A stretch of DNA of 59,306 nt, taken from the NCBI GenBank assembly GCA_020849295.1, contig JADLGN010000017.1, forward strand, positions 1 to 59,306. Reading direction: 5' to 3'. Each line of letters begins with the position of its first letter. Position 1 is the first letter of the stretch. The stretch is from Bacteroidia bacterium (GTDB lineage Bacteria; Bacteroidota; Bacteroidia; NS11-12g; UBA9320). The notes below the pieces were generated by a model. It worked only from the letters and a program-made list of their open reading frames with translations. It had not been told where the DNA came from and did no database searches. Shown piece by piece: positions 3,984 to 58,628 of the stretch. A program made the position numbers and the translations under genes.

Positions 3984-4115
3984 GCCAACAAGGGTTTGGC
4001 GTAATGGCGGGCGAAGTGCTTCGTATGAAACTTTTTGCTAAATTTGAGTTTTGGTGCTTCGTATCAACGGTAGTGCTGTAAAGCCGCCACTACGCCAAGC
4101 CCCGAAACCGTTAGC
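3984..4115 (+). repeat. 132-bp attC-like imperfect palindrome, copy 1
   Basis: The element runs from GCCAAC to GTTAGC. Its outer arms pair well: 3992-4011 (GGGTTTGGCGTAATGGCGGG) against 4085-4103 (read on the other strand as GGGCTTGGCGTAGTGGCG). The centre is not palindromic but is shared with copies 2 and 3: TGCTAAATTTGA, then ATCAAC and GTAGTGCT. All three copies measure 132 bp between equivalent ends. Copy 1 also holds GTGCTTCGTAT twice (4016-4026 and 4054-4064). The complementary terminal hexamers, imperfect stem and length fit an integron attC recombination site, but no integrase is present and R'/R'' do not match the classical consensus exactly. Confidence 0.75.
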
Positions 4116-4188
4116 AACAAGGCTAGCGGAACCGTCAACGAAACAAAATTCGTCCGACAAAAAGATAATGTCCGTTAGACTTTGTTGC
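4114..4188 (+). repeat. Second, nested inverted repeat after copy 1
   Basis: The left arm GCAACAAGGCTAGCGG (4114-4129) begins inside the last bases of repeat copy 1 and pairs imperfectly with CCGTTAGACTTTGTTGC (4172-4188). The right arm contains GTTAGAC (4173-4179), an exact match to the integron core GTTRRRY. The 42-bp interior shows no further symmetry. It lies in the leader of the methyltransferase gene that starts at 4205, so it could also be a transcript hairpin. Confidence 0.45.
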
Positions 4189-4204
4189 CCAAAACGGGAA
4201 ACAA

Positions 4205-5215
4205 ATGGCGGGCAAAACAGCGAAGAACAAAAGTTTATCATCAGCAAAAAATAATAAGGAAGACGAATTTTACACTCAACTTCCAGACATTGAAAAGGAA
4301 TTAAAATATTACAGAAATCACTTTAAAGACAAAGTGGTTTATTGTAATTGTGACGACCCACGAGTTAGTAATTTCTTTGTTTATTTCTCTCTCAACTTTG
4401 AAAGACTTGGACTTAAAAAACTTGTAACAACTTGCTACAAAAACCAAGAAAGAGATTTATTCAGTCAAAACAATTCAGAAAGTGCAATTTATCTTGAATA
4501 CAACGGAGATAAAAACGGCAACAACATTCCTGACCCAAACGAAATCGGAACTATTGACCTAAAAGGCGATGGCGATTTTAGAAGTAAAGAAAGTATCGAC
4601 TTGCTAACGCAAGCCGATATTGTCGTTACCAATCCGCCTTTTTCTTTGTTTCGTGAATACATTGCCCAACTCATCGAACACGACAAAAAATTCATCATTG
4701 TTGGAAGCCAAAATGCGGTTACTTACAAGGAAATCTTTACTTTAATCAAGGAAAATAAAATTTGGTTGGGTAATAACAGCGGAGATATGGAATTTAAAGT
4801 TCCCGATTATTACGAAGAACGAGCCACACGATACAGACAAGACGAAACTGGTCAAAAATGGAGAAGTTTAGGCAACATTTGTTGGTTTACCAATCTTGAT
4901 ATTTCTAAACGCCACGAGGATTTAATTCTTTACAAAACGTACAACGAAGAAGAATACCCAAAATATGACAATTACGATGCAATCAATGTAAATAAAGTTG
5001 CTGAAATTCCAATGGACTATAAAGGTGCTATGGGTGTTCCGATTACATTTTTGGATAAATACAATCCAAATCAATTTGAAATTATCAGCTCAAACGACAT
5101 AAGATTAAATGAAAATGTGCCTTTTAAAGAACACGGTTTAATTAAAGACAAAGACGGAACAATAAACGGCAAACCAACTTACGTAAGAATAGTTATTAAG
5201 CACAAAAAGCTATGA
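4205..5215 (+). CDS. EcoRI-type adenine-specific DNA methyltransferase
   Basis: This 336-residue protein matches the MT_EcoRI family: CNCDDPRVSNFF (residues 48-59) is the SAM-binding motif region, DIVVTNPPFSLFR (138-150) carries the catalytic NPPF, and a C-terminal domain with IDLKGDG and FKEHGLI completes the family pattern. It would methylate the exocyclic amino group of adenine in a short site and so protect host DNA. The start is ATG at 4205. Its stop overlaps the start of the DUF262-HNH gene (ATGA, 5212-5215), so the two are translated as a pair and look like a self-contained modification and cleavage unit. The unit lies between repeat copies 1 and 2 in the orientation expected for a cassette. 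Confidence 0.85.
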   Translation: MAGKTAKNKSLSSAKNNKEDEFYTQLPDIEKELKYYRNHFKDKVVYCNCDDPRVSNFFVYFSLNFERLGLKKLVTTCYKNQERDLFSQNNSESAIYLEYNGDKNGNNIPDPNEIGTIDLKGDGDFRSKESIDLLTQADIVVTNPPFSLFREYIAQLIEHDKKFIIVGSQNAVTYKEIFTLIKENKIWLGNNSGDMEFKVPDYYEERATRYRQDETGQKWRSLGNICWFTNLDISKRHEDLILYKTYNEEEYPKYDNYDAINVNKVAEIPMDYKGAMGVPITFLDKYNPNQFEIISSNDIRLNENVPFKEHGLIKDKDGTINGKPTYVRIVIKHKKL

Positions 5216-6294
5216 ACATAGAATTAAAAGAAATAACAATCCGTGAACTCACAAACGGCTATCAAGACAACGATGAAAACGGAGTTGTTGGTTTTGGTGG
5301 TAAGTTGGACATTCGTCCACCCTATCAAAGAGAATTTATCTACAAAGACAAGCAACGAGAAGCCGTGATAAACACAGTTACAAAAGATTTTCCTTTAAAT
5401 GTGATGTATTGGGCAGTTCGTGAAGATGGAAACTTTGAAGTAATTGACGGACAACAAAGAACAATTTCAATTTGCCAATTTGTATCAGGCGAATTTGCTT
5501 ATGAAAACAGATATTTTCACAATTTACAACAAGACGAAAAAGAACAGATTTTAAACTACAAACTAATGGTTTATCTGTGTTCGGGAACAGACAGCGAAAA
5601 ATTGGAGTGGTTTAAAACAATCAATATTGCAGGAGAAAAACTAACAGAACAAGAATTGCGAAATGCCGTTTATTCAGGTTCTTGGGTATCAAGTGCAAAA
5701 CCGATTTTTAGTAAAAGAAATTGCCCTGCTTTTGGCTTGGCAAGCGACTATATGAATGGAAGCCCCGAAAGACAAGATTATTTAGAAACAGTAATCAAAT
5801 GGATTTCTAATGACAATATAGAAAAATATATGGCTGAAAAACAACATCAGCCAAACGCAAATGAAATTTGGCTTTATTTTCAGTCTATAATAAGTTGGGT
5901 AAAAGCAACATTTCCAAAATACCGCAAAGAAATGAAAGGCATAGCTTGGGGATTTTTGTACAACGAGTTCAAAGACAAAAATTTTGACCACAAAAAACTT
6001 GAAGTACAAATAAGCCAATTAATGCAAGACGAAGATGTTACCAATAAAAAAGGTATCTATGAATATGTTTTGACTGGCAAAGAAAAATTTTTGAATATTA
6101 GAGTATTTACGGACAACCAAAAACGAGAAGCATACGAGCGACAAAACGGAATTTGCATAACTTGTAAAGAACATTTTGAACTAAGTGAAATGGAAGCTGA
6201 CCACATTACACCGTGGCACGAAGGAGGACAAACTTCGGCTGAAAATTGTCAAATGTTGTGTAGAGAAGATAACCGAAGAAAATCGGGAAAATAA
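5212..6294 (+). CDS. DUF262 (ParB/GmrS-like) protein with C-terminal HNH nuclease domain
   Basis: This 360-residue protein has an N-terminal DUF262 domain with PYQR (37-40) and VIDGQQR (77-83), the signature motifs of the ParB/Srx-like fold found in GmrSD-type restriction enzymes. Residues about 312-357 form an HNH nuclease: CITC, then MEADHITPWHEGG, then ENCQMLC and DNRRKSGK. The protein is probably the nuclease partner of the overlapping EcoRI-type methyltransferase. DUF262-HNH enzymes of known function include ones that cut modified DNA, so whether this one cuts unmethylated or modified DNA is open. The stop is only 13 bp before repeat copy 2. Confidence 0.85.
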   Translation: MNIELKEITIRELTNGYQDNDENGVVGFGGKLDIRPPYQREFIYKDKQREAVINTVTKDFPLNVMYWAVREDGNFEVIDGQQRTISICQFVSGEFAYENRYFHNLQQDEKEQILNYKLMVYLCSGTDSEKLEWFKTINIAGEKLTEQELRNAVYSGSWVSSAKPIFSKRNCPAFGLASDYMNGSPERQDYLETVIKWISNDNIEKYMAEKQHQPNANEIWLYFQSIISWVKATFPKYRKEMKGIAWGFLYNEFKDKNFDHKKLEVQISQLMQDEDVTNKKGIYEYVLTGKEKFLNIRVFTDNQKREAYERQNGICITCKEHFELSEMEADHITPWHEGGQTSAENCQMLCREDNRRKSGK

Positions 6295-6307
6295 TGATAG
6301 CCCTGTT

Positions 6308-6439
6308 GCTAACAAGCGGTTTGAACGCAAGCAGGGGTGAATTGCACCGTTCGAACTTTTGTGCTATATTTGAAGTTCGGTTCTCGCATCAACAGTAGTG
6401 CTAAAACACCCCGCCATCGCAAACCCCCGAACCGTTAGC
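6308..6439 (+). repeat. 132-bp attC-like imperfect palindrome, copy 2
   Basis: The element runs from GCTAAC to GTTAGC with perfectly complementary ends. The arm GCTAACAAGCGGTTTGAACG... pairs imperfectly with the reverse of 6407-6439 (GCTAACGGTTCGGGGGTTTG... on the other strand). The centre shares TGCTATATTTGAAGTT, GCATCAAC and GTAGTGCTAAAA with the other copies. It starts 13 bp after the stop of the HNH gene, as an attC site follows its cassette gene. A broken gene begins 13 bp after its end. Confidence 0.75.
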
Positions 6440-6452
6440 TCATATCAGAAAT

Positions 6453-6703
6453 ATGGAAAATGATGTTGTTTCTTTAGCAAAGGCAAAGCAAAAAGATTAC
6501 AAATCATTATCTGAAAAACTACAATCAAACTTACTTCAAATTGCACAATGAAAGGCAAAGCCCACGATGAATTGCATAAATGGTTATTGCCCTACATTGA
6601 TTTGGTAAAAGAACTTTCAGAAGCTAAAGACGAAACCGAAGCAGAAAAGCAATTTCAAAATATTCAGACTTCATTCACAACATTTAATAAATACTTCCAA
6701 TGA
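6453..6703 (+). pseudogene. Frameshifted remnant of a small helical protein
   Basis: Two frames together read as one protein tail. The first (6453-6551) gives MENDVVSLAKAKQ...LLQIAQ and stops. The second (open through 6703) reads CTMKGKAHDELHKW, then LLPYIDLVKELSEAKDETEA and ends FNKYFQ. The motif CTMKGKAHDELHKW sits across the break at about 6538-6548, where loss of one base (CAAATTGC instead of CAAAATTGC) explains the shift. The N-terminus seems to be missing, cut off near repeat copy 2. It resembles short helical proteins encoded near metal-handling genes in Bacteroidetes, but I do not name a family. The next remnant overlaps by ATGA, so the two were once an operon. Confidence 0.6.
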
Positions 6704-7008
6704 ACATAAAAGAATTACACACAAAAGAAAAACCTGTTTAAGCAATTTCTCTTTTTAGAAGTGAATTGGGAAATGCAACAGCTATTCAAATTTTGCAAGG
6801 CGAGAAATTAAAAGAGCATATCACCAAAACTCCTGCACTTATGATTTGCGTGGAAGGAGAAGTAATTTTTGAAAACGAAAAAGGCATTAATGAACCACTA
6901 AAGTCAGGTGATTATGTAAACATTGAACCAATGGTGAAGTATTGGTTGACGGAAAAATGTCTCGTCCTAGAAAAAGTTTACAGTTTTTATTTATTAATCC
7001 TGAAATAA
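6700..7008 (+). pseudogene. Cupin-domain protein interrupted by an in-frame stop
   Basis: The frame starts at ATG 6700 (MNIKELHTKEKPV), meets TAA at 6739-6741, then continues open to 7008 with FRSELGNATAIQILQGEKLK, then ITKTPALMICVEGEVIFENE and LKSGDYVNIEPMVKYW, which is a small single-domain cupin. The C-terminal residues (KVYSFYLLILK) no longer look like a cupin strand, and the 17-bp repeats begin there, so the 3' end was probably replaced as well. A re-start at TTG 6766 would lack the N-terminal strand. It is best read as a dead gene. Confidence 0.65.
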
Positions 7009-7079
7009 GTTTACAATTCATTTTTAGTTCTGAAATAGGTTGACTTTATGAAAAGAGGATAAGTCAACTTATTTCGGGA
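6965..7079. repeat. Cluster of 17-bp repeats, possible insertion-sequence end
   Basis: Three direct copies occur at about 30-bp spacing: TCCTAGAAAAAGTTTAC (6965-6981, weaker), TCCTGAAATAAGTTTAC (6998-7014) and TTCTGAAATAGGTTGAC (7028-7044). An inverted copy, GTCAACTTATTTCGGGA, lies at 7063-7079. Repeated terminal motifs of this kind are seen at the ends of some insertion sequences (for example the IS21 group). No transposase frame is nearby, so this would be a remnant. It lies exactly at the change from accessory to core DNA. Confidence 0.5.
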
Positions 7080-7149
7080 TATGGTATTCTAAAAGAAAAA
7101 TAATAAATTCACATAAAACAATAATTCCCAATTAAGTTAAACTTACAAT

Positions 7150-8028
7150 TTACGATTTAGCTTTTCTTACACTTTTCTCAATTTCGTCCCATTCGTCAGG
7201 TTTTATCATGTCTAGAAAATTAAATTCACCTGCACCTTTCAACCACTCTCCACCGTCTATTATTATTTCTTCACCATTCATAAACGCTGAGTAATCAGAG
7301 ATAAGATAAGATGCAAGATTAGCAAGTTCATGATGTTCACCAACTCTTCCCAATGGTATTTTTTTTACAAAATCAATTTTATTTGAAAGTTCTTGAGGAA
7401 ATAATCTGTCCCAGGCACCTTTGGTTGGAAATGCACCCGGAGAAATTGTATTAAATCTGATATTGTATTTTGCCCATTCTACAGCAAGAGATTTTGAAAT
7501 GGCAAGAACTCCCGCTTTGGCTGCTGCAGATGGTACTACATATCCTGAACCTGTGCTTGCATAAGTTGTAGTAATACTTAATACATTGCCGGTTTTTTTG
7601 TTTTTTATCCAGTAATTGCCGAATGCAAGAATACAGTTTTTACTACCTTTTAGTACAATGTCGAGTATAATATCAAAGGCTCGGTTTGATAATCTTTCGG
7701 TTGGCGATACAAAATTTCCGGCTGCATTATTTACAAGTGAAGTTGTATATCCAAATTCTTCTATTACTTTGTTAAGTGCATTTTCAACTTCGTTGTAATT
7801 TCTAATATCGCATTGCACTGCCAATACCCGGTTGCCGCTTGTGTTTTCTATTTCTTTTGCAGTGTTTTCAATTATTTCCAGTCTGCGTCCCCAAATACTT
7901 ATTTTTGCCCCAAGACTTGAAAAACACTGTGCCATACTTTTGCCAAGACCAGTTCCACCACCGGTTATTACAATTACTTTATCCTTTAGGACATCTTTAG
8001 ATAACATTATTTTTGATGAGTCAATCAT
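7150..8028 (-). CDS. SDR-family oxidoreductase, 2,4-dienoyl-CoA reductase-like
   Basis: This 292-residue protein is a short-chain dehydrogenase with TGGGTGLG (22-29) for NADP(H) binding and NNAAG (100-104). The catalytic region does not use the ordinary YxxxK motif. It has Tyr156, Ser167 and Lys171 (TTTYASTGSG, VPSAAAKAG), with the same 11- and 15-residue spacing as mitochondrial-type 2,4-dienoyl-CoA reductases. The C-terminal NGEEIIIDGGEWL and PDEWDEIE segments also match that group. It would reduce 2,4-dienoyl-CoA esters during breakdown of unsaturated fatty acids. It starts 13 bp after the corA gene and is probably co-transcribed with it, although the two functions are not obviously linked. 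Confidence 0.85.
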   Translation of the reverse strand: MIDSSKIMLSKDVLKDKVIVITGGGTGLGKSMAQCFSSLGAKISIWGRRLEIIENTAKEIENTSGNRVLAVQCDIRNYNEVENALNKVIEEFGYTTSLVNNAAGNFVSPTERLSNRAFDIILDIVLKGSKNCILAFGNYWIKNKKTGNVLSITTTYASTGSGYVVPSAAAKAGVLAISKSLAVEWAKYNIRFNTISPGAFPTKGAWDRLFPQELSNKIDFVKKIPLGRVGEHHELANLASYLISDYSAFMNGEEIIIDGGEWLKGAGEFNFLDMIKPDEWDEIEKSVRKAKS

Positions 8029-8041
8029 TTTTTTTATACAA

Positions 8042-8989
8042 TTAAAGCCATTTTTTTGCTTTAAAAATAATAAATGTTAAAACAAAAATTATAAACATAG
8101 CCGAAACCGAAAAAAGATAGCCGTGTTTCCATGTGAGTTCGGGCATATATTGAAAATTCATACCATAAATACTTGCTATAAGCATTGGAGGCATAAAAAA
8201 CAAACTTACTATAGTAAAAATTCTAATACTGTTGTTTTGTTCAAAGGTTATAAGATTGTTTAAAGTACTGTCAATAAAATCCAGTCTGTTAAAATTAAAT
8301 TTTATATAATCAATTACTGATTCAAGGTCTTTTACCGAGATATCAAGTTCTTCTTCGGTTTTAGAGTTAAGAAATGTAGCTTTTTTAATAAAGCTTATCA
8401 TTAGTTTTTTATCAATGCAGTTTTGCATAAGCATTATCAGATATTCTCTGTATTGGTTAAGTTTCAAAATTAAAAGTTTACTTGTATGTTTATTGGTAAT
8501 TATTTCTTTTGATAATTTAGAAATTTCTATTGAAATATCTTCTACAAAATCTGCTACTGATGAAATTTTAAGGTCAATAATACTTAAAAAAATCTCTGAA
8601 CTACCCATTTTATTTCCTTGCAACAATAGTTTTTTGGCAGTTTCTGAAAATGATTTAGAATTATAATCGCGGTTTGTAATTAAAAACTTTTTTCCAATAA
8701 AGAAATTTACAATTTTTGATGTGAAAGAAATTTTATCTTTTACAATAAAATTTGAATTGCACATAAGGTAATTTTTAAATTCGGAGAATCTGGCACTTTC
8801 TTCAATTTCGATAAATTCATCTCGTGCAAATGGCTCAATTCCCATAAATTTTTCAATCAAGTTTGTTTCTTCATAAGTGCAATTAAGCATATCAATCCAT
8901 ATTACATTTGATTTATCTAAAGTGTTTATAATATTAAAATCTTCAGATACCTCAATGATTTTGTTTTTCAAATAATATATCGAAATCAT
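8042..8989 (-). CDS. corA: CorA-family divalent cation transporter
   Basis: This 315-residue protein has the CorA plan: a soluble N-terminal domain of mixed sheet and helix, a long helix with acidic residues (about 200-250), and two C-terminal membrane helices with the signature YGMNF at the end of the first. The tail after the second helix is basic (KAKKWL). It would form a pentameric Mg2+/Co2+ channel in the inner membrane. It is divergent from the MBL gene (41 bp between them) and precedes the SDR gene. A second corA paralogue of different sequence lies at 49059-49988. Confidence 0.9.
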   Translation of the reverse strand: MISIYYLKNKIIEVSEDFNIINTLDKSNVIWIDMLNCTYEETNLIEKFMGIEPFARDEFIEIEESARFSEFKNYLMCNSNFIVKDKISFTSKIVNFFIGKKFLITNRDYNSKSFSETAKKLLLQGNKMGSSEIFLSIIDLKISSVADFVEDISIEISKLSKEIITNKHTSKLLILKLNQYREYLIMLMQNCIDKKLMISFIKKATFLNSKTEEELDISVKDLESVIDYIKFNFNRLDFIDSTLNNLITFEQNNSIRIFTIVSLFFMPPMLIASIYGMNFQYMPELTWKHGYLFSVSAMFIIFVLTFIIFKAKKWL

Positions 8990-9015
8990 ATTAGCAAATT
9001 AAAGTGTTTTATTTA

Positions 9016-9023
9016 TAAGTTTG
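9016..9023 (+). promoter_or_regulatory. -7 promoter element for the MBL hydrolase gene
   Basis: TAAGTTTG matches the Bacteroidetes -7 consensus TAnnTTTG. It ends 7 bp before the TTG start at 9031, so transcription would begin at or just before the start codon and the mRNA would be nearly leaderless. No clear -33 TTTG is present. Confidence 0.5.
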
Positions 9024-9030
9024 CACTGTT

Positions 9031-9792
9031 TTGAAAGTAACTTTTTTAGGCACAGGCACATCTCAGGGAGTTCCTATAATTGGCTGCCCTTGCATGGTTT
9101 GCACAAGCATAAGTGAAAATGACCAAAGGTTGAGAAGTTCTGTTTATATTGAAACTGACGGAAAATATTTTGTAATAGATACCGGTCCTGATTTCAGACA
9201 ACAAATGCTTAGAGAAAAAATAAAAAAACTAGATGCTGTAATTTTTACTCATTCACACAAAGATCATATCTGCGGTTTTGACGACATAAGAGCTTTTAAC
9301 TATATAAATAAAAAACCTGTTGATGTTTATCTTGAAGAAAATGTATTGAATGCCATAAAGCGTGATTTCTTCTACATTTTCGAAGAGTTTAAATACCCTG
9401 GCGTGCCAGAAGCAAATTTTCATTTAATAAAAAATGAAGATTTTTACATAGAAGGCGTAAAAATTGTCCCAATCAGGGTTCATCACTTTAAAATGCCGGT
9501 ACTTGGTTTTAGGGTTGGAAATTTTACTTATATAACTGATGCTAATAATATAAGTGATGAAGAAATTGAAAAAATAAAAGGAACAGAAGTACTTGTATTG
9601 AATGCTCTTAGATTAGAAAAACATATTTCTCATTTTTCGTTGGATGAAGCAGTAGAAATGTCGAATAGAATAAAACCTGCCAAAACTTTCATTACTCATA
9701 TAAGCCACCAAATGGGGACTCATAGCAATACAAATGCAAGATTGCCTTCAAATATTCAATTGGCGTATGATGGATTAACTATTGAAATTTGA
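9031..9792 (+). CDS. MBL-fold metallo-hydrolase (PhnP-like)
   Basis: This 253-residue metallo-beta-lactamase-fold protein starts at TTG 9031; no ATG is available and the conserved first strand KVTFLGTGTSQGVP begins right after it. The metal-binding motif HSHKDH is at residues 74-79, further ligands lie in RVHHF and YITDAN, and the final His is in THISH. CPCMVC (19-24) is a Cys-rich loop also seen in PhnP-type phosphodiesterases. The family hydrolyses cyclic or ester phosphates; the exact substrate is not known here. It is convergent with the coiled-coil gene, 6 bp apart. Confidence 0.85.
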   Translation: MKVTFLGTGTSQGVPIIGCPCMVCTSISENDQRLRSSVYIETDGKYFVIDTGPDFRQQMLREKIKKLDAVIFTHSHKDHICGFDDIRAFNYINKKPVDVYLEENVLNAIKRDFFYIFEEFKYPGVPEANFHLIKNEDFYIEGVKIVPIRVHHFKMPVLGFRVGNFTYITDANNISDEEIEKIKGTEVLVLNALRLEKHISHFSLDEAVEMSNRIKPAKTFITHISHQMGTHSNTNARLPSNIQLAYDGLTIEI

Positions 9793-9798
9793 TTTTTT

Positions 9799-10761
9799 TT
9801 ATCTCAAAATAAATGATGCTCTGCCTATCAGATTGTCATTATGTATAAGTTCTATAGAATATGTACCTTTCTTGAAATTTGCTTTTTGAGTATAAAAAAT
9901 TGTAGTTTTTACCAAATCATTTTGGTAGTTGATGGTTTTTGTAAGCGTTGACAACTTATCAGTATCAGACAATGTGGGATTATCTTCGGTAAGAACTTCT
10001 TTATTTGTTCCAATCAATCGTACAACAATGTCTTTATCGCCTGGTTCTACAAGTTTATTTTCTAATATCGAAAATGAAATTTTAAGCTTATCTGTTTGTC
10101 GTGCTTTGTATGTTTCTTCTTCTTTTGAGCCTTTTACGCGTACTCCAGTTACTTTAAGATCTGCAATACTCAAATTGCTTGATTTTACTTTTTCGTCAAG
10201 TATATTTTTTTCTTCTTCAAGTGTTTTGGCTTTATTTTGAGCATCAGTAGCTATAGTTTCTGTTTGTAATACTTTTTCAATTAGTTCTTTATTACTTTGT
10301 GTAAGTTCTGCGTTTTTATCTTCAAATACTTTTTGTAATGATTTTAATTTTTCAATTTCGGCTTTAGCTTCAAGCAATAGCTTAGGGTTTGCAACGCTTG
10401 CCTGTTTAATTTTTTTTGCAAGTTGAATTGTTTTTTGATCTAATTGTTCTTTTAATGAAGTATTATCAACCAACAGATTTGTATTATTCTGCATAGCTTG
10501 TTCCAATTGAGATTTTATATCTGCAAGCTGATTGTTGAGGTCGGTTTTTTCTTTATTGTATTTTGATACAGCATCTTTGTATTGCTGCTCATAAGAAATT
10601 CCGTTTTCTCCATGTGTACTTTTGTAGTATTTGTAATACAAATAGCAATTTGCTAAAAAAGAAATTGCAAAAAGCACAGGAAAAATTATACTTCCAAACG
10701 AACCTTTTTTACCTGAATCTTCGCTTGACTGATCTGAGTTATTTCCTTCAAATTCTGACAT
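9799..10761 (-). CDS. Membrane-anchored coiled-coil protein (conserved hypothetical)
   Basis: This 320-residue protein has a short acidic/Ser-rich cytoplasmic N-terminus, one membrane helix at about 24-43 (SIIFPVLFAISFLANCYLYY), a long coiled coil at about 60-190 (many E/K/Q/L heptads), and a compact beta-rich C-terminal domain from about 195 (DLKVTGVRVKG ... GTYSIELIHNDNLIGRASF). The layout suggests a periplasmic scaffold or spacer protein anchored in the inner membrane. No enzyme motif is visible. It stands alone, with about 180 bp of AT-rich DNA upstream and a convergent neighbour downstream. Confidence 0.7.
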   Translation of the reverse strand: MSEFEGNNSDQSSEDSGKKGSFGSIIFPVLFAISFLANCYLYYKYYKSTHGENGISYEQQYKDAVSKYNKEKTDLNNQLADIKSQLEQAMQNNTNLLVDNTSLKEQLDQKTIQLAKKIKQASVANPKLLLEAKAEIEKLKSLQKVFEDKNAELTQSNKELIEKVLQTETIATDAQNKAKTLEEEKNILDEKVKSSNLSIADLKVTGVRVKGSKEEETYKARQTDKLKISFSILENKLVEPGDKDIVVRLIGTNKEVLTEDNPTLSDTDKLSTLTKTINYQNDLVKTTIFYTQKANFKKGTYSIELIHNDNLIGRASFILR

Positions 10762-10941
10762 AATATTTGTTTTATTTACAATTTAAATCCTTGCAATTTT
10801 AATTTTTTTTTTTGATATAATTTAAAAATAATTACCTTTAATAAAACTATTTTAAATTGGTTTTTTAAATAATGAAAAAAAGAACGATAAAGATATTTTA
10901 AGATTAAATATAGAATATGAATTTTAATTTTAATACAAAAT

Positions 10942-11595
10942 CTACTTTCTTTTTTTAGATAAATAACTTTTTAATAAACCAAAAAATAATGGTAAGGTTG
11001 AAATAAACAACACGCCTACAACTACAAGTTCGAAATTCTTTTTCACAACTTCTATTTGTCCAAACCAATACCCACCCAAAGTGCAAATACTAACCCATAA
11101 TATTCCTCCAATTATGTCAAACAACAAGAATTTAGGATATTGCATTTCGCCTACTCCTGCTACAAAAGGAGCAAATGTGCGTACTATAGGTACAAATCTT
11201 GCCATAATTATTGTTTTAACTCCATATTTTTCATAAAATTCTTCAGTTTTTGCAATATGTTTTCTGTGAATTATATATTTCCCTCTGAATTTCCAGTCAA
11301 CTGCATGGTCTCCTAAGAATTTGCCTATCCAGTAATTTGTGTTATCTCCAAGAATTGCTGCTATTATTAATAAAAATATCAATAGAAAGATATTTAAATC
11401 TCCTAATGCAGCAAAGCTTCCGGCTACAAATAATAAAGAATCGCCTGGAAGAAAAGGCATTATTATTACTCCTGTTTCAATAAATATTATACAAAACAAA
11501 ATTACATAAGTCCAATTTCCGTATTTTACTAAAATCAACTTAAGGTTTTCATCTAAATGAAGGAAAAAGTTAAAAAATGTATTGATAAGTTCCAT
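10942..11595 (-). CDS. DedA-family (VTT domain) membrane protein
   Basis: This 217-residue protein has four to five membrane helices and the DedA motifs: FLPGDSLLFVAG (about 49-60), GDNTNYWIGKFLG, then FYEKYGVKTIIMARFVPIVR and TFAPFVAGVGEM. DedA proteins translocate polyprenyl phosphate or phospholipid carriers across the inner membrane and affect envelope stress resistance; which lipid this one handles is unknown. The start is ATG 11595, only 5 bp after a -7 element, so the mRNA is predicted leaderless. It lies downstream of purA, with 44 bp between. Confidence 0.9.
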   Translation of the reverse strand: MELINTFFNFFLHLDENLKLILVKYGNWTYVILFCIIFIETGVIIMPFLPGDSLLFVAGSFAALGDLNIFLLIFLLIIAAILGDNTNYWIGKFLGDHAVDWKFRGKYIIHRKHIAKTEEFYEKYGVKTIIMARFVPIVRTFAPFVAGVGEMQYPKFLLFDIIGGILWVSICTLGGYWFGQIEVVKKNFELVVVGVLFISTLPLFFGLLKSYLSKKRK

Positions 11596-11600
11596 TGGCG

Positions 11601-11608
11601 CAAAAATA
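11601..11608 (-). promoter_or_regulatory. -7 promoter element for dedA
   Basis: On the minus strand this reads TATTTTTG, a match to TAnnTTTG, 5 bp before the ATG of the DedA gene. Transcription would start about at the start codon. No -33 TTTG at the usual distance. Confidence 0.5.
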
Positions 11609-11639
11609 GGTTCTTAAATCAATCTTTAAAATTTTAAAA

Positions 11640-49988: not shown

Positions 49989-50110
49989 AATACCGGTAAC
50001 TGTTTTAATATTTAACTCTGAACAGTTGCGGAATTATGCCCGTTCTATTCAGAAACTATTATATTTTTCGGGTAATAATCTTCCATTATTTTTTTTCAAA
50101 AAAATGAATG

Positions 50111-50118
50111 CAAAAGTA
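50111..50118 (-). promoter_or_regulatory. Possible -7 promoter element for the second corA
   Basis: The minus strand reads TACTTTTG (TAnnTTTG). It lies 123 bp before the ATG at 49988. No -33 TTTG at the right distance. A single 8-bp match in AT-rich DNA is weak evidence. Confidence 0.35.
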
Positions 50119-50161
50119 GTATTATTATTTATAACAAAAATGATTAGTTCTGAAAAAAGTT

Positions 50162-50184
50162 AAGGTTTTTTTTGTTAAAACCTT
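50162..50184. terminator. Hairpin in the corA-transketolase gap
   Basis: AAGGTTTT (50162-50169) pairs with AAAACCTT (50177-50184) around a 7-base loop. It lies between divergent genes where no transcript should end, so it may be a leader structure or chance; kept with low confidence. Confidence 0.25.
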
Positions 50185-50262
50185 ATAAAAGTGTAAAAGT
50201 GCATATCAAGTTATTAAGTATTATTTCAATTTTCGGAATTTTGAATGTAATTCGCATAATTT

Positions 50263-51117: not shown

Positions 51118-51210
51118 TAAAATATAAATTAAAGGACAATACTTTGATAAGTTTATTGTTTAATAAAAAGTAATTGATTAATATTTGTAATTATTATTTG
51201 CTTTAAGTTT

Positions 51211-52599
51211 TTGAAATTTAAAATATTTTTTTCAGGGAAATTAAAAGTATTGTGCTTTTTTGCATTATCAATATTTTTTTCAAACTATTCTTATTCTCAA
51301 CTTCCAAACAAAACAAGGATACTTTTTTTGCTTGATGCAAGCGGTAGTATGTATGCAAGAATGGGCAATGATATAAGAATGGGAGTTGCCAAAAGACTAT
51401 TATCAAAAATGGTTGATAGCCTTAGAAACCAACCTAATCTTGAAATTGCTTTACGCGTTTATGGCCATACTACCATAAAAGAAAAACAAAATTGTCATGA
51501 TACTAAACTTGAAGTACCTTTTAGCAGAAACAATCACGATGATATACTCAAAAAATTAATTAGCCTGAAACCTTTAGGTACCACACTAATAGCATACTCT
51601 TTGCAAGAGGCAGCTTATGATTTCCCAACTGATAATAGAAGCAGAAATATTATTATTTTAATTACAGATGGACTAGAAGAATGTAATGGCGACCCATGTG
51701 CAGTATCGGAAGCAATGCAAAAAAAAGGTGTTATATTGAAACCTTTTATAATAGGAGTGGGGGGAGATGAGAATTTTGCAAAACAATTTGATTGTGTAGG
51801 CAGATATTTTGAAGCAAATACTGAGGCAGATTTTAATGATGTTCTTAGAGTAGTGATTTCTCAGGCTCTTAATAATACTACACTTCAAATAAACCTCTTA
51901 GACCAAAGCGGAAGACCTTACGAAACTGATGTAAATATGACTTTTTATGACAGTAAATCAGGGAGAATGAACGAAAATTTTATACATACTTTAAACGATA
52001 GAGGAGTACCTGATACAATAAGCATAGACCCTGTAAACTTATATGATATTGAAGTGCATACATTGCCACCTGTAAAAAAAACAAATGTTGAAATAATAGC
52101 AGGACGACATAATATTATTGCAATTGATGCTCCTCAAGGAAAATTAAATCTAAAAGTTGAAGGAGTTACTAATTATAACAGATTGCAGTGTCTTGTGAAA
52201 AAAGCAGGTACCAATAATCTTGTAAATGTTCAGGACTTTAACACTACAGAGAAATACATTACAGGTTCTTATGATATTGAAATATTAAGTACACCGCGAA
52301 TTACTGAGAAAAATATAATAATAGGACAAAGCAAAGTTACCTACGTATCAATTCCACAGCCAGGCAAATTAAACTTTTATTCGCGTCTTGGAGTAGTAGG
52401 TGCTATATATCGTATGAAAAACAATAAACTTGAATGGGTAATTAATATTAGTAACAGCAGTGGTTCACAAATTACAGTTTTGCAACCCGGACATTATAAA
52501 TTAGTTTGCAGGGCAAATATTGATAAGCGAATAGTTTCAACAAAAAGATTGGATTTTGAAATAAAATCAGGTCAGGTTACAAACCTAAATGTGCTATAA
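51211..52599 (+). CDS. Secreted VWA-domain protein
   Basis: This 462-residue protein starts at TTG 51211 (no ATG in the right place). A signal peptide covers about 1-29 (hydrophobic, ending YSYSQ). The von Willebrand A domain spans about 36-220 with the metal site Asp42-x-Ser44-x-Ser46 (LLDASGSM), a Thr in PLGTTLIAYSL, and ITDGLEECNGDPC. Beta-rich repeats make up the remaining 240 residues. The VWA fold binds protein ligands through a metal ion. It stands 93 bp after the transketolase N-half and 10 bp before the C-half, so it is probably in the same operon although no metabolic link is known. Confidence 0.85.
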   Translation: MKFKIFFSGKLKVLCFFALSIFFSNYSYSQLPNKTRILFLLDASGSMYARMGNDIRMGVAKRLLSKMVDSLRNQPNLEIALRVYGHTTIKEKQNCHDTKLEVPFSRNNHDDILKKLISLKPLGTTLIAYSLQEAAYDFPTDNRSRNIIILITDGLEECNGDPCAVSEAMQKKGVILKPFIIGVGGDENFAKQFDCVGRYFEANTEADFNDVLRVVISQALNNTTLQINLLDQSGRPYETDVNMTFYDSKSGRMNENFIHTLNDRGVPDTISIDPVNLYDIEVHTLPPVKKTNVEIIAGRHNIIAIDAPQGKLNLKVEGVTNYNRLQCLVKKAGTNNLVNVQDFNTTEKYITGSYDIEILSTPRITEKNIIIGQSKVTYVSIPQPGKLNFYSRLGVVGAIYRMKNNKLEWVINISNSSGSQITVLQPGHYKLVCRANIDKRIVSTKRLDFEIKSGQVTNLNVL

Positions 52600-52609
52600 A
52601 AATTAAAAA

Positions 52610-53563
52610 ATGATAAAAATAGATATACTCGACAACAAAGACACCCGCTCGGGTTTTGGAGCAGGTCTTTTAGAACTTGGCAGAACTAATAATGATGTAG
52701 TGGCTTTATGTGCAGACCTTACAGGTTCTTTAAAAATGGATGCTTTTAAAAAAGAATTTCCCGAAAGATTTTATCAGGCTGGAATAGCAGAGGCTAATAT
52801 GATAGGTATGGCAGCAGGATTGGCTACAGGAGGTAAAATTCCATTTACTGGAACATTTGCCAACTTTAGTACAGGCAGAGTATATGACCAAATAAGACAA
52901 GCCGTAGCTTATTCTGATAAAAATGTTAAAATTTGTGCTTCACATGCGGGGCTAACACTTGGCGAAGATGGAGCAACACATCAAATTCTGGAAGATATAG
53001 GCTTAATGAAAATGCTGCCTGGCATGACAGTTATTAATACTTGCGATTATAATCAAACAAAAGCTGCAACAATTGCAATAGCTAATTATAACGGCCCGGT
53101 TTATCTAAGATTTGGAAGACCTAAATGGCCTGTATTTACTAAGCCTGAACAAAAATTTGAAATCGGAAAAGCTTGGCATATTAATGAAGGCAATGATGTC
53201 TCAATTTTTTGTACAGGACATTTGGTTTGGAAAGCAATAAAAGCAGGTGAAATACTTGCTGAAATGGGGATAAATGCTGATATAATAAACATTCATACAA
53301 TAAAACCATTAGATTTTGAAGCAGTTTTAAAATCAGTTTCTAAAACCGGTTGTGCAGTTACTGCTGAAGAACATCAAATGAATGGCGGACTGGGAGATAG
53401 TATATGTCAACTTTTATCATTAAACAATCCTAAACCTATAGAAATGGTTGCAGTGAATGATAAATTTGGAGAAAGCGGAACTCCTGATGAATTACTTATA
53501 AAATACGGTCTAGATACTCCAGACATCGTAAAGGCAGTTAAAAAAGTAATTTCACGCAAGTAG
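52610..53563 (+). CDS. Transketolase, C-terminal (pyrimidine-binding) subunit
   Basis: This 317-residue second half of a split transketolase has DLTGSLKMDAFKKEFPERF, the catalytic-Glu region AGIAEANMIGMAAGLA, GRVYDQIRQAVAYS, HAGLTLGEDGATHQ and the C-terminal AEEHQMNGGLGD. It ends 4 bp from the convergent ftsE gene. Confidence 0.92.
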   Translation: MIKIDILDNKDTRSGFGAGLLELGRTNNDVVALCADLTGSLKMDAFKKEFPERFYQAGIAEANMIGMAAGLATGGKIPFTGTFANFSTGRVYDQIRQAVAYSDKNVKICASHAGLTLGEDGATHQILEDIGLMKMLPGMTVINTCDYNQTKAATIAIANYNGPVYLRFGRPKWPVFTKPEQKFEIGKAWHINEGNDVSIFCTGHLVWKAIKAGEILAEMGINADIINIHTIKPLDFEAVLKSVSKTGCAVTAEEHQMNGGLGDSICQLLSLNNPKPIEMVAVNDKFGESGTPDELLIKYGLDTPDIVKAVKKVISRK

Positions 53564-53567
53564 TTTA

Positions 53568-54254
53568 TTAGCCTGCAAATCTCACTTCTTCAACTACACC
53601 ACCTTCACATCTGAATATTTTCCCCGGAAATTTATTAATTATCCTGTAATCATGAGTTGCTATTAATACAGCAGTACCCAAATCACAAATATTTCTGAGC
53701 AAATGCATAATATCGTCAGTTACTTCAGGGTCAAGATTTCCGGTTGGTTCATCTGCAAGAATTACTTCAGGTTTGTTCAATATTGCTCTGGCTATAACAA
53801 GTCTTTGCTGCTCACCTCGCGAAAGTTCAAAAATCATTTTAAAACCTTTACTTCCCAATCCTACTAGATTTAATACTTCATTTATGCGGGCATCCATTTC
53901 GCTTCTTTTTTCCCAGCCCGTTGATTCAAGAACAAACCAAAGATTGTGATAAACATTTCTGTCACTCAACAAATTGAAGTCTTGAAAAACTATACCAAGT
54001 TTGCATCTGAAATAGGCAATATCTTTTATTTTTAAACTCTTTAAGTTATAGCCCACTACTTTTCCGTTGCCATTTAAAAGAGGAATATCACAATACAATG
54101 TTTTTAGTAAACTGCTTTTTCCGCTTCCTGTTTTGCCAACAAGATATACAAGTTCTCCCTTTGATACGCTTAATTCAACATTTTGAAGAATAAGGTTTTT
54201 CCCCTGAAAAATATTAGCATTTTGTAATTCAATTATGGGTTGAGAATCAAACAT
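53568..54254 (-). CDS. ftsE: Cell-division ABC transporter ATPase FtsE
   Basis: This 228-residue ATPase has Walker A GKTGSGKSS, the Q-loop IVFQDFNLLSDRNV, signature ELSRGEQQRL, Walker B VILADEPTGNLD and an H-loop IATHDY. FtsE works with FtsX to activate peptidoglycan hydrolases at the division site. The DFNLL...TVYENV-type segment and length fit FtsE rather than other importers; LolD is an alternative. It is last in the aroB-aroA-aroC-ftsE cluster, 45 bp after aroC. Confidence 0.82.
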   Translation of the reverse strand: MFDSQPIIELQNANIFQGKNLILQNVELSVSKGELVYLVGKTGSGKSSLLKTLYCDIPLLNGNGKVVGYNLKSLKIKDIAYFRCKLGIVFQDFNLLSDRNVYHNLWFVLESTGWEKRSEMDARINEVLNLVGLGSKGFKMIFELSRGEQQRLVIARAILNKPEVILADEPTGNLDPEVTDDIMHLLRNICDLGTAVLIATHDYRIINKFPGKIFRCEGGVVEEVRFAG

Positions 54255-54299
54255 TTTTCAAACCAACATATTTTTTACATTTTTGGCAAACAATGTTTT

Positions 54300-55373
54300 C
54301 TACATTTTATCAGATTTGCTCAACATAAAAAAATCAGCAATTACCAAAGCTGCCATTGCTTCTACAATAGGCACTGCTCTTGGTATTACACAAGGGTCGT
54401 GTCTGCCTTCAGGTTTTATTATTACTTTTTCACCTTTAATATTTACTGAGTTTTGAGGTTTTAAAATAGTGGGGGTAGGCTTAAATGCAGTTTCAAAATA
54501 AATAGTTTCACCATTGCTTATACCACCTTGTATTCCGCCCGAATGATTACTTGAAGTTTTTACCTTATCATTTTTCAGTATAAACTCATCATTAATTTCT
54601 GAACCTTTATAATTTATAATATTTCTTCCGCTGCCAAACTCAATTGATTTTACAGCATTAATTGAAAAAACAGCTTTTGCCAATTGTGCATTCAGTTTAT
54701 CAAAAACAGGTTCGCCAAGTCCTGCAGGACAATTTTTTATAACACATGAAATAATTCCTCCAAGACTGTCACCATCTTTTCTTGCTTTTTCAATACAATT
54801 TTCCATTTCAATTGCAGTTAGGCTTTCAGGGCACTTTACATTATTTTTTTCTGTTTCTGATAAGTCAAGTTTCTCGTAGTCTGTATTTATTGATATATTG
54901 TAAATCTGCTTTGTGTAAGCATTTACAGATATATTTTTTGTTTTTAATATTAACTTAGCAATAGCACCAGCAGCTACCCATCCGGCTGTAATTCTTGCAG
55001 ACGACCGACCTCCTCCGCGATAATCTCTTATTCCGTATTTTTGATGATAAGTATAATCAGCATGTGACGGACGAAAAACTTCCTTTATGTTTTCGTAATC
55101 TTTACTTTTCGAATCAATATTTGGGATTATAATTGTTATAGGAGAACCGGTTGTTTGGTTTTCAAAAACACCTGAAATTATTTCAAATTTGTCGCTTTCT
55201 TTTCGCTGAGATGAAATTTTGTTCTTACCCGGTTTGCGTCTGTCTAGCTCTTTTTGAATAAATATTTCATCAATTGTCAACCCCGATGGGACACCGTCTA
55301 TCACTACTCCAACTGATTTTCCATGCGATTCTCCAAATGATGTTATTTTTAGTAATATGCCGAAAGTATTCAA
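54300..55373 (-). CDS. aroC: Chorismate synthase
   Basis: This 357-residue FMN-dependent enzyme makes chorismate from EPSP. It starts at TTG 55373, directly before NTFGILLKITSFGESHG, the normal N-terminus. Further signatures are DRRKPGKN, GVFENQTTGSPI, RPSHADYTY, DYRGGGRSSARITAG and GGIQGGISNGE, ending with RHDPCVIPRAVPI. It follows aroA by 22 bp. Confidence 0.95.
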   Translation of the reverse strand: MNTFGILLKITSFGESHGKSVGVVIDGVPSGLTIDEIFIQKELDRRKPGKNKISSQRKESDKFEIISGVFENQTTGSPITIIIPNIDSKSKDYENIKEVFRPSHADYTYHQKYGIRDYRGGGRSSARITAGWVAAGAIAKLILKTKNISVNAYTKQIYNISINTDYEKLDLSETEKNNVKCPESLTAIEMENCIEKARKDGDSLGGIISCVIKNCPAGLGEPVFDKLNAQLAKAVFSINAVKSIEFGSGRNIINYKGSEINDEFILKNDKVKTSSNHSGGIQGGISNGETIYFETAFKPTPTILKPQNSVNIKGEKVIIKPEGRHDPCVIPRAVPIVEAMAALVIADFFMLSKSDKM

Positions 55374-55395
55374 ATTTATTTTGTTTTATGCAAAC

Positions 55396-56622
55396 TTAAT
55401 CTATTATTTCAAAACCTGCTTTTTTCAAGTCATGCCAAAAATCAGGATATGATTTATTGCAAACATTCCCTGTTTTTATTTTTATTTCTTTAATAATTGC
55501 TAAAGGTGCCAATGCCATTGCTATTCTATGGTCGTTGTAGTTTTTGAAAGTTGTATTTTTTATTAATCTAAAATTTGAAGCATCAAGTTCCCAAATACTT
55601 TCTTTTTCTGTAAATTTTACATTACATTTTTTTAATTCATTTTGTAATGCTAAACTTCTATTACTTTCTTTTATTTTCAAAGTTTCAATTCCGGTTATAA
55701 TTGCTTTTTTGCAACTTGCCGAAAGCATAACTATAACTGATGGTGCTAAATCAGGACAATCTGCAAAATCCCAAACAGTATTATTTTCAATTTCTTTATC
55801 TGTATTTTCTATCATTATTCCATTGTTTAGATATGAAGTTTTAATACCAAATTTTGTTGCAAATTCTGAAATCTTTGAATCACCTTGATTACTTCCCTTA
55901 TGTAATTTATTTAGTTTAATTTTAAGATTTTTTGAAAGTAAAACAATTTGATACCAAAAGGCTGCCGCCGACCAATCGGCTTCTATCTCTATTTTTTTTA
56001 ATTGGTTTAATGAAGATTTATATTCGCTAATTTCAATTTTGTTTAATTCATAATTAATTTCAAAACGGCATAGTTTCATAAGATTTACAGTCATATCAAT
56101 ATATGGTTTTGACATTAGCGTACCTTCTAAAATAATTTTTAGTCCACCTTTAAAAAATGCACCAATCATAATTAAAGCCGAAATATATTGACTACTTTCT
56201 GTGCCCTTAATTATTACAGTTTTAGGATAAAGATTACTTTTATGTATGCAAACAGGAGGAAACCCGCGTTTATCTATATAAGTAATTTTTGCCCCAAGAT
56301 TATTTAATGCATTAATTAATTCTCCGATCGGTCGCTGTTTCATACGATTACTCCCACCAAGAATTTTATTTTCGTTTTTTGCAGCAAAGTATGCTGCCAA
56401 AAAACGAATCACTGTTCCTGCATTTTTACAGTTTATTATTTTACTTTTCTTGTCTATCAGTTTTTCAAGCAATAAACTATCATCGCTTTTTGATGGATTT
56501 TTAATATCAAGTTCCAGATTATACAATTTTTTAATAATTAATAATCTGTTATAAATACTCTTTGAGGCAGGAAGTTCTATTTCTTTATATACAACATTAT
56601 TTATATATCTGATTAGCGACAT
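55396..56622 (-). CDS. aroA: 3-phosphoshikimate 1-carboxyvinyltransferase (EPSP synthase)
   Basis: This 408-residue enzyme adds enolpyruvate from PEP to shikimate-3-phosphate. Motifs: ELPASKSIYNRLLII at the N-terminus, NAGTVIRFLAAYFA, MKQRPIGELINAL, and DHRIAMALAPLA near the C-terminus. At 408 residues it is slightly shorter than the E. coli enzyme, and the sequence is a divergent Bacteroidetes type. It overlaps the end of aroB by 10 bp. Confidence 0.93.
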   Translation of the reverse strand: MSLIRYINNVVYKEIELPASKSIYNRLLIIKKLYNLELDIKNPSKSDDSLLLEKLIDKKSKIINCKNAGTVIRFLAAYFAAKNENKILGGSNRMKQRPIGELINALNNLGAKITYIDKRGFPPVCIHKSNLYPKTVIIKGTESSQYISALIMIGAFFKGGLKIILEGTLMSKPYIDMTVNLMKLCRFEINYELNKIEISEYKSSLNQLKKIEIEADWSAAAFWYQIVLLSKNLKIKLNKLHKGSNQGDSKISEFATKFGIKTSYLNNGIMIENTDKEIENNTVWDFADCPDLAPSVIVMLSASCKKAIITGIETLKIKESNRSLALQNELKKCNVKFTEKESIWELDASNFRLIKNTTFKNYNDHRIAMALAPLAIIKEIKIKTGNVCNKSYPDFWHDLKKAGFEIID

Positions 56623-57653
56623 AATGAAGTGTAATATTTTAAGCTTTCTATTATGTTATCAATTGAAATTTGTTCACTTAAAACTGGTTTTTCAAAATCC
56701 GATAGTAAAACACAATTAATTTCAAGGTTTTCGTTTTTTTTATCCTTTAATGTAAGCTTAGCAATGTCGTTTATTTGTTCTACTTCAAATTTTAAGGGAT
56801 TGAAAAACTTTAAAATAGTTTTCTCAATGAGATAGTATGTGTTTTCTTCTAAAAGTCCTTTTTTCAAACTTATATAACTTTCACAAATCATTCCAGCAGC
56901 TACACAGTATCCATGAGGAATATTGCGTTTTATTAAATAGCTTTCTATTGCATGACCAACTGTATGACCAAAATTTAATATTTTCCTAAAATTTTCTTCT
57001 TTAAAATCTACTTTTACAATTTCACTTTTAATATTTACCGATGATTTTATATGTTTATAAAACTTATTTTCAGATAAATCATTTTGTAAATTTGTTTTTA
57101 GATTAGCAAGTTCTAAAAAGTAGTTTTTATCATAAATAATCCCATGTTTAATCATCTCAGCAAACCCTGATTTTAGTTGTTTTTCAGGTAAAGTTTCAAG
57201 AAAATCTGTATAAATTATTGTTTTTTGCGGCATACAAAAAGTACCGATGTAATTTTTAAGATTATTAAAATTAATACCTGTTTTTCCTCCTATTGCTGCA
57301 TCAGTCATACCAATTAAAGTAGTTGGAATATTAATGTAATTCAATCCTCTTTTGAATGTAGAAGCAGCAAAACCTCCAATATCTGTAACTACACCTCCTC
57401 CTAAATTTATAATAATTGAATTTCTGCTTATATTGTTTAAAATAAAAATTTTATAAATGTCAGTAAGTACCTTTATTGACTTGCTTTTTTCACCTCCATT
57501 AATTACATAAACAGGTATTTTTTTCGATGAAGAAAAAAGTAATGGAAAGCAATATTTGTAAGTGTTTTTATCGCAAATTATTAATGAAATTGAAATTTTA
57601 TCTAATTCATTTTTGAGTTTTTTGAACTTATCTGTAATTATGATTTCTTCCAA
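56613..57653 (-). CDS. aroB: 3-dehydroquinate synthase
   Basis: This 346-residue NAD-dependent enzyme makes dehydroquinate from DAHP, the second step of aromatic synthesis. It starts at TTG 57653. Motifs: NGGEKSKS, NLGGGVVTDIGGFAASTFKRG, PTTLIGMTDAAIGGKTGIN, FAEMIKHGIIYD and LNFGHTVGHAIES. A -7 element lies 11 bp upstream of the start. Confidence 0.94.
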   Translation of the reverse strand: MEEIIITDKFKKLKNELDKISISLIICDKNTYKYCFPLLFSSSKKIPVYVINGGEKSKSIKVLTDIYKIFILNNISRNSIIINLGGGVVTDIGGFAASTFKRGLNYINIPTTLIGMTDAAIGGKTGINFNNLKNYIGTFCMPQKTIIYTDFLETLPEKQLKSGFAEMIKHGIIYDKNYFLELANLKTNLQNDLSENKFYKHIKSSVNIKSEIVKVDFKEENFRKILNFGHTVGHAIESYLIKRNIPHGYCVAAGMICESYISLKKGLLEENTYYLIEKTILKFFNPLKFEVEQINDIAKLTLKDKKNENLEINCVLLSDFEKPVLSEQISIDNIIESLKYYTSLCR

Positions 57654-57664
57654 TCTTTTTTCTA

Positions 57665-57672
57665 CAAACTTA
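57665..57672 (-). promoter_or_regulatory. -7 promoter element for the aroB-aroA-aroC-ftsE operon
   Basis: The minus strand reads TAAGTTTG (TAnnTTTG), ending 11 bp before the TTG start at 57653. It lies between the terminator of the upstream small gene and aroB, as expected for an independent operon promoter. Confidence 0.55.
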
Positions 57673-57700
57673 GTAATAGTTTGATGTATTTAAGAATAAA

Positions 57701-57730
57701 AAAAGGTGAACTATTTTAAGCTCACCTTTT
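57701..57730 (-). terminator. Intrinsic terminator after the 52-codon gene
   Basis: On the minus strand AAAAGGTGA (57730-57722) pairs with TCACCTTTT (57709-57701) as a 9-bp stem around a 12-base loop, followed by more T residues. It lies 24 bp after the stop of the small basic-protein gene and before the aroB promoter, which separates the two transcripts. Confidence 0.75.
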
Positions 57731-57754
57731 AATTTATGTCTTTTTCTAATTTTG

Positions 57755-57913
57755 TTAGTTTATTTCAGGAATTGAATCAAGAATAATTCCAGACTCATCT
57801 TTGTATGGTGATTTTACCATTACTTTTTTGTTAAGTAACTTTAAATAAGCTGTTCTTTGCTTTGCAACAACCTTGTTTACTCTCTCTTTACGTTTTAATC
57901 TTGTAACTGCCAT
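57755..57913 (-). CDS. Small basic protein (conserved hypothetical)
   Basis: A 52-codon gene starts at ATG 57913 and reads MAVTRLKRKERVNKVVAKQR, then TAYLKLLNKKVMVKSPYKDE and SGIILDSIPEIN. The first half is strongly basic. Short proteins beginning MA(V/Q)xRLKRK are common in Bacteroidetes and I believe this belongs to that group, but their function is not known to me; a ribosome- or nucleic-acid-binding role is a guess. It has its own terminator. Confidence 0.65.
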   Translation of the reverse strand: MAVTRLKRKERVNKVVAKQRTAYLKLLNKKVMVKSPYKDESGIILDSIPEIN

Positions 57914-58496
57914 AATCTTTTTTAAAAGGACTGCAAAATAAATATTTTAAAACTTTAAATACAATTTTTTTTATCAAAATTTAAAAGTTATAGAGACTCT
58001 GATGTCTTGTAATAAAAATAGAGAAATTTTTATTTATTGTTTTACTTCTATAAAAAAACAAGTGTAAATTTTAAGCCACTCCATTTAAGCAAAATTAAGA
58101 AGTCACTTTAAAGTTTGAGTGACTTAAAATGCCTATAATTAAGTTGTTTGTTTCTCTAAAAGGCGTTTTTTTATGTATTTTGGAGTGGTTGTGCAATAGT
58201 TAAACTTGTTATAGGTAGCCCCTTTTTCTGTCCTGTCATATTACGCTATTCATATGGTTAACGTCTTGTTTGTTATAATACCACTTGATTACTTGTATTT
58301 TTCTGTTTGGTTTAATTTCTTAAACGACTTTTTTGTTATATGTTTGAAGTAGTTTTGTCAATGTTGTTCCCATACCTTGCTGACTTAACAATATAGCATA
58401 AATCGGTAATGCAATGCTTGAATAACCTATTAACTGTGATAAGTTGATTAAAGAAAGAGTTGGGTTTTTAGACGACTTGTCCCGACCTATCTGGAG
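57914..58496. other. Gene-poor stretch between core and accessory DNA
   Basis: No convincing gene is seen in these 583 bp. It contains a hairpin AAGTCACT/AGTGACTT (58100-58107 with 58118-58125) and a second weak stem AAAATGCCT/AGGCGTTTT around 58127-58171. An open frame at 58320-58538 (-) starts with GTG inside repeat copy 3 and has no recognisable domain. The core genes end at 57913 and the repeat begins at 58497, so the join between core and accessory DNA lies here. Confidence 0.5.
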
Positions 58497-58628
58497 TTTG
58501 ACGGTTTTAGGCTTTGCGAAGGAGCGGATTTTTAGCACAAATGTTGAATCAACAAACTGAAGTTCAAATTTAGCAAAAAAGTTTTATACGAAGCACTTCA
58601 CCCGTTCTCTTGCAAAAGCGATGTTGGC
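58497..58628 (-). repeat. 132-bp attC-like imperfect palindrome, copy 3 (inverted)
   Basis: Read on the minus strand it begins GCCAAC (58628-58623), then CGTATAAAACTTTTTTGCTA and AATTTGAACTT in the centre, TTGTGCTAAAA, and ends AAAACCGTCAAA. The outer arms pair (GCTTTTGCAAGAGAACGG with the GCTTTGCGAAGGAGCGG read on the plus strand at 58511-58527). The right end, GTCAAA, has drifted from GTTAGC. It follows the stop of the MmeI-like gene by 40 bp in the same orientation, as copy 2 follows the HNH gene. Confidence 0.7.

Follow-up and report, generated by a model that had tools for sequence, protein, structure and literature searches.

Three 132-bp palindromes found in a stretch of Bacteroidia DNA are very probably attC-like sites of an integron-like cassette system. 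The enzyme predicted to operate it is a tyrosine recombinase without the additional domain (I2) of the integron integrase IntI, a domain regarded as essential for the capture of cassettes. The window, by which we mean the whole stretch analysed, is 59,306 nt of contig JADLGN010000017.1 (GCA_020849295.1, Bacteroidia bacterium, NS11-12g; UBA9320), and it belongs to a source genome of 2.68 Mb in 55 contigs that is 99.99% complete. The palindromes (c1–c3, Table 1) were described in an initial annotation, and re-inspection confirmed their positions, strands and common length. The annotation proposed a sedentary integron of Bacteroidetes or else another kind of cassette-moving element, which is borne out in the form of an integron-like cassette system, and the gene content between sites varies while the sites persist, as it had asked to be checked. 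There is strong support from sequence comparison that the system works like an integron, and restriction and other genes are predicted to be shuffled by recombination of folded DNA sites. The usual definition of an integron does not cover it, because the integrase lacks I2 and the GTTRRRY core is mostly missing; an I2-less integrase with attC-like cassette arrays would instead be a variant new to integrons and apparently widespread in Bacteroidota.

In integrons the attC hairpin is completed only by excision: in the circle, the first bases of the same cassette supply its right box. Here also, a cassette opens after G^TT with approximately 10 bases that are reverse-complementary to the left end of its own closing site, up to kilobases away, and as in attC each of the two cassette ends contributes one outer box of the imperfect hairpin. 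The source genome gave 16 testable cassettes: four run from attI to a site and 12 from site to site, with an inserted element skipped over in three of the 12. All 16 match at six or more of the seven head bases 4–10, compared with 4 of 240 mispairings. The mean match is 6.6 of 7 for own pairs and 3.3 for mispaired ones, and the score sum was reached by none of 100,000 permutations. Base 11 is equal in one and base 12 in 14 of these cassettes. Two pairs left out of the test, one on contig C19 and one with a weak site on C18, were scored afterwards, the C18 pair with 6/7, giving 17 of 18 overall. Relatives contributed seven arrays in which the model matches at least twice; there 22 of 24 pairs reach at least six of seven (mispaired, 13 of 552). 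The head of the complete window cassette (4110–6433) matches its closing site over 10 nt, and the match has no second occurrence in the window.

A covariance model trained on eight sites of the source genome, the three window copies included, finds 38 sites there at E ≤ 0.1, which is a lower bound as 150 of 396 first-look candidates were scored. Exactly three are found in the window, 136 bases each, with 133, 124 and 101 bits; these copies are training sequences, so the matches show uniqueness in the window and not independent support. Before the model was made, a plain DNA search with c1 alone found c3 and places on contigs C31, C28 and C9 with E-values of 1e-8 to 1e-14. As single folds, c1 (z -2.5/-2.0, top/bottom strand) and c2 (-1.5/-2.6) are moderately better than shuffles, and c3 is no better (+0.2/0.0). 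When 70 distinct sites are aligned to the model, 91.6% of the cells pair against 58.1% in shuffles, 402 of 1377 cells have changed on both sides, and the stem covariation score is 0.744 compared with 0.179 when shuffled (0/500) and 0.04–0.10 for slid structures. The alignment is fitted to the model and the sites are related, so the shuffles overstate the significance and the slid structures are the fairer control. The stems keep pairing by compensatory change while the arm sequence drifts. Fixed points are an A-C mismatch (66/70), which corresponds to a G-T pair on the bottom strand, a U-A pair (70/70) and CGT at the crossover (70/70). The centre TGCTAWATTTGA...GTGCTRWAAA, given as conserved in the initial annotation, is common to the window copies and is not found in most other sites.

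When each site is folded under DNA parameters together with the head of its own cassette, the bottom strand is the more stable in 30 of 33 sites, with a median of -5.2 kcal/mol (p 9e-7). The same holds for 27 of 33 in the array form, and on the bottom strand the circle form is more stable than the array form in all 33. The comparison leaves out two non-matching pairs from locus L048, the three source-genome pairs in which an inserted element was skipped over, C2 639>3781 and C7. A strong preference for the bottom strand is described for classical integrons (PMC6393395). A crude scan for canonical attC gave no matches on four IntI loci; it is empty even there, and so provides no canonical attC control. 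Some automatically chosen right ends are plainly wrong (e.g. L056, L061, L062, L064), and the lengths from that measurement as a whole are unused. Four loci from Pontibacter and Rufibacter (L166, L169, L176, L186) have short sites, roughly 60 bp long and centred on a GGCCGACGGCC-like sequence, near the size of a classical attC.

The arrays begin at an attI-like boundary approximately 40–150 bp downstream of the recombinase stop codon, and the recombinase gene and the cassettes share one orientation. The recombinase keeps the catalytic residues and is about 40 residues shorter than IntI at the site of I2; the KxR-to-HxxR distance is 58–64 in 93 of 100 family members (two pattern artefacts, five unmeasured), and 100 in 11 of 11 IntI measured out of 12 taken. 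I2 is thus absent, and the TIGR02249 score is 119.8 bits against a cut-off of 265. The annotation had warned that no IntI was in the window and that the GTTRRRY core was not matched exactly, and it was right on both points: the whole source genome has 15 TIGR02249 matches with none over the cut-off, and the core is found in 3 of 34 attI-side heads. GTTR occurs in 34/34 heads, partly by selection because GTT[AG] was sought. TATA-like bases lie at about -9 to -6 on the attI side.

An integrase next to an array, which the annotation suggested looking for, is seen in relatives in the order integrase, attI, array. The single long recombinase frame of the I2-less family in the source genome ends contig C9, and for this reason its own array is unseen. 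In addition, nine truncated 3' integrase tails head arrays as orphan attI sites, on contigs C4 (two), C8, C14, C28, C30, C31, C51 and C55. They show two kinds of left border, and six read through to a shared boundary, TACTAG^TT, where the DNA diverges. The closing site of the next cassette matches the head over 9–10 nt in four of five testable tails.

Relatives carry complete integrase genes with 38–53% identity (full-length matches beyond the Xer-like ones), and 16 of 20 fetched loci have an attI-like boundary after the integrase stop, 12 of these with a matching closing site. These 16 platforms were chosen by eye for the attI-like motif, with a match threshold of 8 nt, and the four without a matching site have at most 1.3 kb of contig left. 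An automatic attI scan covered 100 loci, 80 from named records including Algoriphagus, Aquiflexum, Belliella, Arcicella, Maribellus, Maribacter, Pontibacter and Rufibacter, as well as metagenome-assembled genomes labelled Spirochaetes and other phyla. A match of at least 9 nt was found in 33 of 97 scored loci compared with 15 of 288 control windows, and, where 2 kb or more of sequence follow downstream, in 28 of 52 loci (counted by hand). One relative (G017) has two integrase copies, identical where compared, and the DNA downstream of them agrees as far as G^TT and diverges beyond it. The attI site beside the integrase is recognized by comparison only. Directional gene-then-site arrays are present in Algoriphagus litoralis, where the integrase is followed by seven sites on the same strand, each behind one or two open reading frames, and in the window at c1–c2.

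The methylase and endonuclease pair of the window is found with 72% identity in another genus (genome G604), where it opens the array behind an integrase end and attI. Matches to the pair are present in 4 of 147 genomes: the source genome, G604 and two others, these last over short stretches. The homology to G604 spans 4262–6293 and ends there. The G604 closing site is different and short, and its left end ATCACATAAC (L229 8323-8332, once in 16 kb) matches the head GTTATGTGAT; model R1 finds four full sites further downstream in the array. Related genes are therefore present in two arrays, at different positions and with different closing sites, and this placement may be read as historical evidence of cassette movement.

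Sites were found in 23 of 26 relatives with the integrase and in 14 of 32 without (p 0.0008; counted by hand, with E ≤ 1e-45 as positive and a 129-aa fragment in G033 counted as negative). Within the class, 150 of 295 genomes have a match to the family profile at E ≤ 1e-60, a count for which attI was not confirmed genome by genome. Of 296 genomes drawn from the phylum, 84 exceed the cut-off for canonical IntI. With a limit of E ≤ 1e-55 there are 85 carriers, one of them from the class of the window, the share of the class among the 296 not being given. Canonical IntI is frequent elsewhere in the phylum and nearly unseen in this class. According to PMC9024848, only In0 elements were known from Bacteroidetes before IntegronFinder 2.0 gave one complete integron, in Salinibacter ruber; judged by the profile count, cassette platforms could be common where that program gives one. 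The open-access literature, with subscription papers and preprints outside the search, gave no report of an I2-less integron system in Bacteroidia.

In a tree the short integrase joins IntI, away from Xer, and IntI falls inside the short integrases, which form one clade in 0 of 200 bootstraps. A single clade is left unrejected by the approximately unbiased (AU) test (p=0.195), so an origin of classical IntI from within the I2-less integrases is merely favoured.

The recombinase would excise cassettes as circles, with the circle junction completing the hairpin, and the circles would be inserted at attI or at other sites. It probably acts on the folded bottom strand, and the strand might be chosen by conserved positions, the A-C mismatch on the top and the G-T pair on the bottom strand, instead of by I2. 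The use of single strands without I2 is the bold part of this model. We also consider, somewhat short of even confidence, that the system is a living pre-I2 integron, in which I2-less integrases would capture and shuffle cassettes via folded single-stranded attC with the strand chosen by G-T/A-C, and from within which IntI would have arisen.

Other explanations account for part of the data. The short integrase might recombine double-stranded DNA in Xer fashion, with the hairpin arising incidentally from inverted binding sites or serving replication or transcription; this is unlikely, though to be taken seriously, as drift of the arms by compensatory change and a bottom-strand bias in 30 of 33 sites are unlike a duplex site recognized by sequence. 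A canonical IntI with I2, unassembled or foreign, could work the sites with the short recombinase as a bystander, and the attC-like behaviour of the sites and the frequency of IntI in the phylum would agree with this. Such an arrangement is nevertheless most improbable, considering the lack of an IntI over the cut-off in a nearly complete genome, the single carrier in the class, and the position of the short recombinase directly before attI in relatives.

The 132-bp units are palindromic and dispersed, some of them beside an insertion-sequence-like end, as scattered miniature inverted-repeat transposable elements (MITEs) or inverted-repeat transposons would be. Terminal repeats within each copy are not found, since the ends match across the cassette in the pair tests of both the source genome and relatives, and the arrays behind integrases have a single orientation, which makes such an origin scarcely credible. 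We give equally little credence to a structured RNA or regulatory element without a role in DNA recombination: a covarying stem and a promoter-like motif on the top strand of some sites would suit it, but the window has no Rfam match at the gathering threshold, and complementarity over kilobases, attI and the changing genes between sites would be left unexplained.

Several observations weigh against an integron-like system worked by the I2-less recombinase. Recombination, excised circles and population variation have not been seen, and deletion of I2 is reported to abolish IntI1 (PMC7790495), so that single-strand use without it would be unexpected. The pairing is also imperfect: the C19 pair reaches 5/7, the two failing pairs of relatives are both in L048, the platform on C30 has no matching site, and 64 of 97 loci in the automatic scan stay below 9 nt, many with little contig left. 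In three of the 33 sites the top strand has the more favourable fold. Sites are present in 14 of the 32 integrase-negative genomes and absent from three of the 26 positive ones, and the short closing site in G604 is missed by model R1 and rests on a match of 10 nt to its head.

The window holds two arrays pointing inward from the contig ends, with core genes between them (aroB and an SDR reductase among those scanned). The left one consists of a cassette with HsdS and other genes, c1, the restriction-modification cassette and c2; the right one, on the minus strand, of the type IIG enzyme, c3 and the insertion-like end. The c1 cassette starts outside the window and the c3 cassette beyond the contig end. 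Site c2 begins 14 bp past the stop at 6294, and c3 41 bp past the gene end at 58669. Cargo names are from profile matches.

Table 1. Features of the cassette arrays in the window.
Feature	Position	Strand	Evidence or remark
Type I restriction specificity subunit (HsdS), upstream of c1, left array region	303..1736	+	Profile match
Helix-turn-helix + Panacea (SocA-like) antitoxin-type protein, within left array region	3046..3969	-	Profile match
attC-like site c1	3984..4115	+	Covariance model match 3981-4116; DNA search
Head of complete cassette, GTTAGCAAC, directly after c1 crossover	4110..4118	+	Exact reverse complement of 6305-6313
Complete two-gene restriction-modification cassette, c1 crossover to c2 crossover	4110..6433	+
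EcoRI-type adenine methyltransferase, 336 aa	4205..5215	+	Pfam PF13651 E 4e-147; PADLOC type II methyltransferase
Restriction endonuclease, GmrSD_N + HNH domains, 360 aa	5212..6294	+	PADLOC REase_II E 2e-138
Left box of c2, GTTGCTAAC	6305..6313	+	Pairs with own cassette head 4110-4118
attC-like site c2, final site of left array	6308..6439	+	Covariance model
Insertion-sequence-like end from c3 crossover, replacing right box	58464..58502	-	Variant of end at 18/37 source-genome sites
attC-like site c3	58497..58628	-	Covariance model match 58496-58631; DNA search
Type IIG (MmeI-like) restriction enzyme, C-terminal part; cargo of c3-closed cassette	58669..59115	-	Profile match

In the source genome, 18 of 37 sites have, precisely at the attC crossover, an insertion-sequence-like or MITE-like element with the ends CTGTCTAAAAAC / GTTTTTAGACAG, as if attC were its target, and some copies hold a short frame, MKFIAGKNRNQLEF... 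The end of c3, described by the annotation as drifted, does differ, and is explained as a variant of this element's end. A promoter-like motif, TAnnTTTG, the Bacteroidota promoter consensus (-7 box), is present on the top strand of 14 of 70 sites, including the centres of c1–c3, and on the bottom strand of none (mononucleotide shuffles, 3.1 on average and at most 11); the sites might thus carry promoters for the next cassette.

If the reading holds, some restriction-modification genes in Bacteroidia move as cassettes. How recombination of folded single-stranded DNA by integron integrases originated is an open question, and the eLife study of I2 names a "lack of intermediates" as a limit (PMC7790495). 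A natural I2-less cassette system would either fill that gap or represent a separate solution to the same problem. The integron-like subgroup of tyrosine recombinases in PMC8138268 likewise consists of simple recombinases near Xer and IntI, but the part of that article available names no sites or cassettes for the insertion-less members. Xer/dif modules share the Xer-like recombinase fold and movable gene modules, and separate XerC/XerD-like genes are present in the source genome (C38, C54). The dif sites are short conserved sequences, unlike the long variable hairpins here; a dif-like short conserved core is not seen at the module borders, where the arms vary by compensatory change, and no dif-site search was made.

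The closest likeness is to sedentary chromosomal integrons, with the integrase beside attI, directional gene-then-site arrays, a hairpin completed only in the circle and a bottom strand that folds better. attC sites carry extrahelical bases; the sites described here have a conserved A-C mismatch. They also differ from integrons in that the integrase has no I2, GTTRRRY is mostly absent, the boxes are complementary over about 10 bases, the integrase gene points towards the array, and in one genome truncated integrase tails, nine in all, stand at the head of arrays.

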